Of a DNA stretch of 64,000 nucleotides, positions 61,183 through 63,974 are shown in pieces (position 1 is the stretch's first letter; each line of letters starts with the position of its first letter). A program made the position numbers and the translations under genes. The DNA is from Alphaproteobacteria bacterium (GTDB lineage Bacteria; Pseudomonadota; Alphaproteobacteria; UBA8366), in NCBI GenBank assembly GCA_028281325.1, contig JANQKC010000035.1, positions 124,001 to 188,000 of the forward strand, in the 5' to 3' direction. A model generated the notes under the pieces. It saw only the letters and a program-made list of their open reading frames with translations, made no database searches and was not told the origin of the DNA.

Positions 61183-61734
61183 TTAGTTCCGGCCCAGCCA
61201 GATCTTCACGGCCTGCTCGGCCGCCTGTCGGGCTCGTTCCGTGATTTCCTCATCGGACAAGGTGCTCAACGGATGCGTGATGACGACCGGTTCGAGATCA
61301 TTCATACCCAGCGCGGCCCGCTGGACTTCGGCCTCATGGACGAATTCCGTGGTCACGATAACGGCGGTCGGCCGGTCTTGTCCTTCGAGAGAGACGGCGT
61401 CATGCATACAGCACGACGTGCAAGACCCTCAGTCGCCGATAGCGGTGAGGACGATATCGTTCTCGGCGATGATATCGCCCAGAAGACCCGGATCCGCATT
61501 CTTCGAGAAACTCTCCTTCTCGTAGAAGCGTATTTCCGAAAAATCGATATCTTCCTCCAGGATCGCCTGCGTCTTGCGGAGCAGGTTGTTCCCGTTCCAC
61601 TTCTTGTTGCTGAGTATGCCGAGACGCAGACCGTTCAGCGCTTCGACGCGCTTGCCGATCGGCACCGGCACCGCCTCGACCGTGCCGCGCGGGTCGTACA
61701 CGGTCTGGCCCGTTTGGGGGGCATCAAGTGGCAT
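61183..61734 (-). CDS. UGSC-family selenoprotein, TGA-encoded selenocysteine at residue 102
   Basis: Translation through a single in-frame TGA (61429-61431) gives 183 residues. The sequence reads ENDIVLTAIGD-U-GSCTSCCMHDAV, so the TGA falls exactly at the U of the U-G-S-C motif that names this family, followed by C-T-S-C-C. A perfect AAGGAGGT ribosome site precedes MPLDAPQTGQTVYDP, while the part after the TGA has no ribosome site of its own. A SECIS-like stem-loop starts just after the TGA. The protein is thioredoxin-scale and probably redox-active, but its substrate is unknown. It lies 54 bp after its partner gene in one operon. Confidence 0.85.
61374..61431 (-). promoter_or_regulatory. Bacterial SECIS element and UGA codon
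   Basis: Directly after the UGA, mRNA bases 61418-61411 (CGUCGUGC) pair with 61405-61398 (GCAUGACG), giving 8 pairs including one G-U, around a UGUAU loop (61410-61406). The loop begins 18 nt after the UGA and has G as its second base, which satisfies the published bacterial SECIS model (loop 16-37 nt away with a G in the first two positions). A 7-bp outer stem (GGUCUUG 61427-61421 with CAAGACC 61380-61374) encloses it. Confidence 0.8.
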
Positions 61735-61788
61735 GTGACCTCCTTGTTTGGTAATCCCGTTCGTTCAACGGCGGCCGTTGGACGGCCG

Positions 61789-62922
61789 CTAGAGATGGCA
61801 TGTTCCGTCTTCGCAGATCATCCCGCCGGCCGCCGGCGCGCGGCCGTTCAGTTCGCGCAACACCGGGCTTGCCATATGGCCCCAGCCCGGAATGAAGGCG
61901 GAGAACCGGCCGGCCTCGCCGCCGGCGCAGAACAGATGGATGTGGTCGGGCGTCGGGACGACCGGAATGCGGGCGTCCACGTCGCGCTTGTACCATTTCG
62001 GCAGGCTGCGGTTATAGACCTTGCCGTAGCGGTGCTGGAACGCCACGTCGCCGAAGGTGTTGGTCGCCTGATACCACAGGTAATGGCGGATATCGTGCCG
62101 GGTCCACTGATACTTCGCCATCACCTTGGCGTGCTCCGGTCCGATGACCACGGCGCAATGTCCGGCGCTGACGGCGTTGTTATGGGCGATGGTGCTCATC
62201 GCCGAGACGATGCTGTCGAGGATGCCTTCCGGATCGTCCGAGACATGGTTGGTGACGCTATGTGGCGGCTCGGCGGGCATCACGAAGACCGTCGAGTCCT
62301 CCTGATCGAACCCCTTCTCCACGTGATAGGGCGCAAGGCAGCCGATCTCTTCGTTTTCGGCGATGCAATAGGTGTATTTCGCGGGAGAGCCGAGGGTGCT
62401 CTTGTCCAACTCCCCGGGCCAACCGCCGCCGACATTCAACAAGACCATCCGGATCGCCCGGCCGATCGTCGCGTTCGCCCGATTGCCCGAGCCGAAGGCA
62501 TTGTGGCCGCTGTTCATGCCGATCTCGTTCCGGATCGGTCCGTTCACGACCAGGAGCGGCGACGCCATATGTGTCGTCGCCTGCACGCCGACCAGGTTGA
62601 ACGCGGTGGAGCACAGCGCCAGCATCGCCGCCCGAACGACCGGCGCGTATTCCGGCTTGCAACCGGCCATCACCATGTTGATCGCCAGCACCTCGCGGGT
62701 GAGGTTGCCCCACCGGGGCGGCACCCGGGCTTCGACGTAATCCGGGTCACCGCCGAGGGCCGCGATCATCGCCTCGACCTTCTCCGGCGTCGGCGGCGCG
62801 ACAGGGAAGCCGTCGGAATATCCCTTATCATAGTACCACTCGACCAGGTCGGTATCGTTGGGCACCGCCGACGGCTCGGCATCCGTATCGGCGCTGCGTT
62901 TCGCGAGGGCTTCACCCGTCAT
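61789..62922 (-). CDS. Partner protein of the UGSC selenoprotein, unknown function
   Basis: This 377-residue cytoplasmic protein starts at 62922 (MTGEALAKRSADT) after GAGAGAAG. I do not recognise a named family. Visible features are DLVEWYYDKGYSDGFPVAPPTP, a glycine/asparagine-rich middle (GMNSGHNAFGSGNRANATIG), conserved-looking histidines and tryptophans, and a C-terminal ICEDGTCHL ending in a C-x4-C pair that could exchange electrons with the selenoprotein. It precedes the UGSC gene by 54 bp and is divergent from a LysR regulator, so the three form a locus. Confidence 0.85.
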   Translation of the reverse strand: MTGEALAKRSADTDAEPSAVPNDTDLVEWYYDKGYSDGFPVAPPTPEKVEAMIAALGGDPDYVEARVPPRWGNLTREVLAINMVMAGCKPEYAPVVRAAMLALCSTAFNLVGVQATTHMASPLLVVNGPIRNEIGMNSGHNAFGSGNRANATIGRAIRMVLLNVGGGWPGELDKSTLGSPAKYTYCIAENEEIGCLAPYHVEKGFDQEDSTVFVMPAEPPHSVTNHVSDDPEGILDSIVSAMSTIAHNNAVSAGHCAVVIGPEHAKVMAKYQWTRHDIRHYLWYQATNTFGDVAFQHRYGKVYNRSLPKWYKRDVDARIPVVPTPDHIHLFCAGGEAGRFSAFIPGWGHMASPVLRELNGRAPAAGGMICEDGTCHL

Positions 62923-63047
62923 CGATTCTTCTCTCATTGGTGGCGGAGTTCGATGCCCAACTATGCGCACAACACGGTAATGCTTCAATACTTTCCTAAT
63001 TTCCTTTATTATTCCATTTTATGCATAAATACGATTGATGCTCACCG
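62923..63047. promoter_or_regulatory. Divergent promoter with a 12-bp palindrome
   Basis: The AT-rich gap between the UGSC operon and the LysR gene holds the perfect palindrome TTTATGCATAAA at 63018-63029, 19 bp before the LysR start. LysR proteins bind imperfect palindromes between divergent genes, so this is the best candidate operator. It lies close to the regulator's own start and would allow autoregulation. Confidence 0.45.
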
Positions 63048-63974
63048 ATGCCCGCCGACGCCGACAAACAGGATCTCAGCTCCCGACAACTCCGCTGTGT
63101 CGTGTCGCTGGCGCGGTACGGCAGCTTCGTCGCCGCCGCCGCGGACTTGAACATGTCGCAACCTGCCTTGACGCGGGCCATCATGCGGGTCGAGGAAACG
63201 CTGGGTGTGCGGCTGTTCACCCGCAGCACGCGGCGGGTCGCGCTGACCGGGGCGGGCGGGGAGTTCGTGCCGGTTGCGGAGCGCCTGCTCGCGGACCTGG
63301 AAATCAGCGTGCAGAACATGCGGGCGTTGCAGAGCCGCGAGCGCGGTCAGCTGGTGATCGCCTGTCTCATGTCGGTCGCCTATGGCGTGCTGCCCAAGGT
63401 CATCGCGGACTATCACCAGCGCCATCGCGGCGTCGACCTGGAAATCCGCGAAGGCCTGTTGAGCACCGTCATCGAAGACGTGCGCAGCGGCCTTGTCGAT
63501 TTCGGGATCGGCGACATCACCAACTCCCCCGCCCTGCCCGATGCGATCGAAGCGACCCCGTTGCGCGACGAACGGTTCCGGGTGGTGCTGCGCACCGACC
63601 ATCGTCTGGCCGCGCGGCGGCGCCTGGGCATGAAGGATTTGCGGGACGAAACGGTAATCACGATGCCGTTCGGCGCGGGCATGCGGCGGCTGATCGACGG
63701 CAGCGCCGCGACGGCAGGGATCGGCTTCGATCGCACAATCACAGTGAGTCAGTTCGCCACGGTCTTTTCGCTGGTGCGGTCCGGGATCGGCGTGTCGATC
63801 GTACCCGAATCGGCGCTGGCGATCGAACCGGACCCGTCCGTGCGCTCGCTGCCGCTCACCAATCCCGCGATTACACGGAAACTCGGATTGCTGCGGATCC
63901 GCAACCGCCCGACATCGCCCGCCGCCGAAGGTTTCCTCGACCTTCTTGGAATCGCGCCTTCGCCAAACCTCTAG
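63048..63974 (+). CDS. LysR-type transcriptional regulator next to the UGSC operon
   Basis: This 308-residue regulator has an N-terminal helix-turn-helix (RQLRCVVSLARYGSFVAAA then MSQPALTRAIMRVEETLG) and an effector-binding domain from about residue 95 (RGQLVIACLMSVAYGVLP). It is complete, stopping at 63972-63974. It probably regulates the divergent partner-UGSC operon through the palindrome at 63018-63029. The effector is unknown. Confidence 0.93.
   Translation: MPADADKQDLSSRQLRCVVSLARYGSFVAAAADLNMSQPALTRAIMRVEETLGVRLFTRSTRRVALTGAGGEFVPVAERLLADLEISVQNMRALQSRERGQLVIACLMSVAYGVLPKVIADYHQRHRGVDLEIREGLLSTVIEDVRSGLVDFGIGDITNSPALPDAIEATPLRDERFRVVLRTDHRLAARRRLGMKDLRDETVITMPFGAGMRRLIDGSAATAGIGFDRTITVSQFATVFSLVRSGIGVSIVPESALAIEPDPSVRSLPLTNPAITRKLGLLRIRNRPTSPAAEGFLDLLGIAPSPNL

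Follow-up and report, generated by a model that had tools for sequence, protein, structure and literature searches.

GrdB of glycine reductase and PrdB of D-proline reductase are found in amino-acid fermenting clostridia, whereas the hosts of the UGSC selenoprotein family are mostly aerobic or marine bacteria. The UGSC family was first reported from marine metagenomes and from Hyphomonas in the GOS paper, where it ranked as one of the marine selenoprotein families of highest abundance and had no known function (PMC2398784). It was found once fused to a domain called Unknown_1, and its fold was described as 'likely' thioredoxin-like (PMC2398784; PMC13188914). No biochemistry on the family was found in the literature searched. 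Regarding the RNA signal, the bSECIS model places the apical loop 16–37 nt after the UGA, with a G within the first two loop positions (PMC13188914).

The window analysed here is a 64,000-nt stretch of an alphaproteobacterial genome (C24:124001-188000; hereafter the own genome). On its minus strand, positions 61183..61734 carry a 183-aa frame running from the ATG at 61734-61732 to the TAA stop at 61185-61183 and interrupted by a single in-frame TGA at 61431-61429, exactly where the earlier note had placed the U of UGSC. Read as selenocysteine, this codon (61429..61431, U102) stands in the context ...TAIGDUGSCTSCCMHD..., and a TGA or Cys codon is aligned with it in all homologues. The readthrough product matched the UGSC family models over their full length and above both cut-offs, with 144 bits for NF041046, 'UGSC family (seleno)protein' (cut-off 125), and 180 bits for PF24696 (cut-off 25). 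The signal is therefore not something unknown, as the earlier note had presented it, and the gene itself is one more member of an already listed, curated family. The ribosome site said to be perfect is indeed strong (AAGGAGGT, 61738..61745, minus strand), but lies only 3 nt from the ATG, which is a close spacing; the ATG of the second ORF (61407) has no ribosome site in the sequence preceding it, as had been claimed. The reading of the two ORFs as one UGSC family selenoprotein gene, presumably translated by UGA readthrough, is very well supported at the sequence level.

A search of the whole window against Rfam at the gathering threshold returned one tRNA and no other RNA family, so the SECIS element was judged by comparison. 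When 61371-61440 (minus strand) was folded, the predicted hairpin was recovered: its 8-bp stem begins at nt 11 past the TGA and its UGUAU loop at nt 19, with 18 nt separating TGA and loop, and a 7-bp outer stem surrounds it. The putative bacterial SECIS hairpin thus spans nt 11–31 after the TGA (61398..61418, minus strand), and its loop at +19, with G as second loop position, agrees with the bSECIS model, a feature which is conserved. The folding energy did not stand out (z −0.99; 28 of 200 shuffled sequences did equally well), and it is the comparison with homologues that raises the hairpin above chance. For this comparison, 95 UGA homologues were aligned without indels and 8 Cys-form stretches served as contrast. 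Among the UGA homologues the apical loop lies at +19/+20, G20 is found in 95/95 and U21 in 94/95, and the inner stem (positions 14–18 with 24–28) is paired in 93 to 95. Overall, the fraction of paired cells reached 0.85 in UGA members, versus 0.78 (maximum 0.80) when partners were shuffled and at most 0.44 when the 3' side was slid. In Cys members it fell to 0.58, and U21 was lost in 7 of 8. The outer stem, although present in the fold as the earlier note had it, is not conserved among UGA homologues: 0.52–0.56 of its cells are paired, a fraction that rose as high as 0.58 when the 3' side was slid.

At pair 18–24 of the hairpin, 57 of the 95 UGA homologues have C-G and 37 have G-C, a swap which, from the aligned sequences, is compensatory in the RNA and at the same time changes the protein. 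Codon +6 after the selenocysteine, TGC (Cys) or TGG (Trp), switches together with the 3' pairing partner of this pair. The position corresponding to residue C108 is variable, being W, G or S in many relatives. Hairpin and protein appear to constrain each other at residue U+6, as judged from this alignment.

The sel genes expected in the organism were all matched in the own genome. A tRNA-Sec (C24:188565-188655; 76.7 bits, cut-off 47), selB (C24:189843-191732; 451.6 bits, cut-off 242) and, directly upstream of selB, selA (601 bits, cut-off 268) lie 0.6–5.2 kb past the end of the window, and two selD genes scored 411.7 and 303.7 bits (cut-off 125). The better-scoring selD (L023, C17:10982-11911) has an in-frame TGA of its own, in the motif GGGUGCK; the second, on contig C33, is without TGA. 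In locus L017, an AhpD/YciW-like peroxidase-related gene (L017:4980-5531) is located between the UGSC module and the tRNA-Sec; it gave 33 bits with a '(seleno)protein' model (cut-off 310) and has no TGA inside. Five UGSC genes, including the present one, were found in the own genome, with one in-frame TGA each. Within the class, 38 of 385 genomes carry UGSC, most of them in several copies; a single TGA is present in almost all of the copies. In 103 distinct stretches from fetched loci, the site is a UGA in 95 and a Cys codon in 8, in agreement with the earlier expectation of Cys or Sec; the Cys forms include loci of Parapusillimonas, Cupriavidus, Achromobacter, Candidimonas, Roseicella and Natrialba. 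Of 18 UGA-bearing genomes searched for selB, 16 gave a match over the cut-off, a seventeenth matched over the full length at 235 bits, and the last, a MAG, gave no match. A rule that Cys forms go with the loss of the Sec machinery was rejected, since 5 of the 8 Cys-form genomes keep a full-length selB; in Candidimonas and Natrialba, any selB score stayed within the range of ordinary elongation factors. Taken together, family profiles, sel genes and comparative conservation of the hairpin support the selenoprotein interpretation with its matching SECIS.

Upstream of the UGSC gene, on the same strand, lies a second gene (61789..62988, minus strand) encoding up to 399 aa, the conserved part of which starts near residue 42 and has D59, G60, C110 and R177 among its conserved residues. 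Searches of this partner against Pfam and NCBIfam returned no family even at E 5, apart from a single Pfam match at 0.15 regarded as noise. Six relatives of the partner are encoded in the own genome, one beside each of the five UGSC genes and one, on contig C26, without UGSC. For the collection scan the partner-wide alignment A2 was too divergent, and alignment A3 was used. In the 80 loci collected via the partner, a UGSC gene is present on the same strand within 400 nt in 68, before the partner in 35 and after it in 33; it lies further off in three and is out of reach in nine, of which six are from Poribacteria and two are at contig ends. The Poribacterial homologues (L089, L095, L104, L106, L109, L131) have no UGSC in reach, and those of their genomes that were tested have selB. 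Conversely, among loci chosen only for UGSC, the partner is adjacent in 27 of 29. This gene order supports a constant gene pair, made of UGSC and the 399-aa partner, in most relatives. A thioredoxin-like N-terminal stretch with a CxTC motif is found on partner chains in 11 collected loci (L067-L146) and in three of the own genome.

Families of other neighbours were counted after codon-position filtering, plain ORF clustering being polluted by antisense ORFs. TctC receptors (15) and CoA-transferase III (13) were the commonest among 212 filtered neighbours, along with LysR regulators and acyl-CoA dehydrogenases. These neighbours point to organic-acid catabolism, with variation from locus to locus and no single substrate indicated. 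In the window, a divergent gene for a LysR-type regulator (63048..63974, plus strand), assigned from family profiles and position, possibly regulates the UGSC module, given its position and the recurrence of LysR genes near relatives. In a few loci, selA/selB genes lie next to the UGSC module.

An AlphaFold2 model of UGSC, built with 72 sequences (pLDDT 92, pTM 0.84), showed five strands strictly alternating with helices, with Sec102 following strand 3, where a helix begins. The thioredoxin fold follows a different order (beta-alpha-beta-alpha-beta-beta-alpha, with CxxC/UxxC after the first strand). According to the model, UGSC adopts an alternating alpha/beta fold of five strands, not one of thioredoxin order. 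Solved structures matching it were generic alpha/beta proteins, with Z scores up to 11.2, the second-ranked being chain H of 8s7v, a methyl-coenzyme M reductase activation complex (134 residues aligned with an rmsd of 3.6, Z 10.8); family assignment from such generic matches was rejected. For the partner, no fold is claimed: Foldseek placed class I fumarases and cyclic amide hydrolases on top, with an E value of 2e-3 and a TM near 0.2, and VIA gave Z scores of at most 6.3. Sequence searches of the PDB with the UGSC protein and the partner returned nothing meaningful for either.

A probable remote relation to GrdB/PrdB emerged from profile comparison. The plain Pfam model PF07355 did not match the UGSC protein even at E 5. 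When the UGSC profile was aligned by hhalign with 27 PF07355-type UPxC selenoproteins, the score was 38.8, with Sec on Sec, and 37.6 with the UxxC columns masked; as controls, 150 column shuffles gave a highest score of 22.3 and 341 unrelated neighbour proteins or families one of 26.8, and the probability given by hhalign itself was 62–68%. The own genome has five matches to the C-terminal part of PF07355 (GRDB), which proved to be UPxC readthrough selenoproteins wherever they were read. These PrdB-like genes (PF07355 C-terminal half) are located at C14:370568, C14:371798, C20:60449, C26:74892 and C33:80402 (L147-L151, L036); the one on C26, read through, matched no NCBIfam model. The C26 partner gene adjoins this PrdB-like gene and not a UGSC gene, and in locus L044 a PrdB-like gene directly follows UGSC. 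Both arrangements add to the link. From these profiles, UGSC is a probable remote homologue of the Sec-bearing half of GrdB/PrdB, and not a member of PF07355.

By analogy with these reductases, we consider it rather probable that the single UGSC gene encodes the redox half of a GrdB/PrdB-like, two-protein enzyme completed by the product of the upstream gene. Decoding of the UGA would depend on tRNA-Sec, SelB and the SECIS hairpin that immediately follows it, and the UGSC product would most likely associate with the upstream gene product, UGSC acting as the redox half. Sec102-x-x-Cys105, at the helix start, may then attack or reduce an organic substrate held by the partner or shared with it, following the GrdB/PrdB analogy. 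The resulting selenenylsulphide of Sec102 and Cys105 would be recycled by a thioredoxin, a step which the CPTC thioredoxin-like domain present on some partners could carry out in cis. The neighbouring genes suggest that the substrate may be among organic acids; we infer substrate, reaction and electron donor alike, as we do the two-subunit reductive selenoenzyme itself, in which the pairing of UGSC with its partner rests on gene order. More tentatively, UGSC might be the compact catalytic subunit of a widespread class of two-subunit selenoenzymes, distant kin of glycine and proline reductases, with a new 399-aa partner family that sometimes brings its own thioredoxin domain, and with a role in the breakdown of organic acids in numerous bacteria and some archaea.

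Other explanations were weighed against the same data. That the frame represents two separate genes, a pseudogene or a sequencing error, with TGA being either a genuine stop or a misread TGC/TGT, has in its favour only the stop codon that breaks the frame. Such readings have a negligible probability: the same TGA recurs in the four paralogues and in about 95% of homologues, so that an error, which the earlier note had named as a possible refutation, is ruled against by each of the five own-genome copies and nearly all copies in the 37 other genomes of the class, the sel machinery is complete and the second half is devoid of a ribosome site. UGSC might also be a stand-alone thiol oxidoreductase of thioredoxin-like fold, with the neighbouring gene as a mere frequent passenger, as the marine metagenome paper suggested for the protein (PMC2398784) and as its UxxC motif, typical of redox proteins, would allow. 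We regard this as unlikely in view of the alternating beta-alpha order in the AlphaFold2 model (pLDDT 92), which puts Sec after the third strand, and of the tight, two-way pairing with one partner family.

Alternatively, the Sec/Cys pair could be a site for binding or delivery of a metal or of selenium, rather than a catalyst, and the partner a receptor. In other families Sec is regarded as a metal ligand (review PMC13188914), and sel genes stand beside UGSC modules in several loci. However, the neighbours are catabolic and not metal-resistance genes, and selenium delivery is improbable because Candidimonas and Natrialba carry Cys forms while lacking a full selB; we accordingly give little credence to either form of this explanation. 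The two-protein enzyme remains our preferred reading. With the partner gene, the corrected fold and the GrdB/PrdB link, what was an 'unknown redox protein' becomes a testable two-protein enzyme. The partner pairing, the predicted fold and the GrdB/PrdB profile match are new here, the UGSC family itself being already known.

Compared with the UGSC family as defined by NF041046/PF24696, the gene has in common the UxxC motif, the position of the SECIS and the habitat in free-living bacteria, and does not differ substantially in itself; what is noted in addition is the presence of five copies in the own genome and of a constant partner gene. Unlike GrdB/PrdB, UGSC is a short, single domain, has the motif GSC instead of P-x-C and escapes the PF07355 model. 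GrdE and PrdA are the pyruvoyl-forming partners of GrdB and PrdB, and the UGSC partner has no assigned relation to them. Like GrdB of glycine reductase and PrdB of D-proline reductase, UGSC has its Sec in a UxxC motif, and the profile comparison suggests that this motif takes an equivalent position in a probably similar strand-Sec-helix unit. GrdB/PrdB also works with a second subunit, and PrdB-like UPxC genes share the partner family of UGSC in at least one locus.
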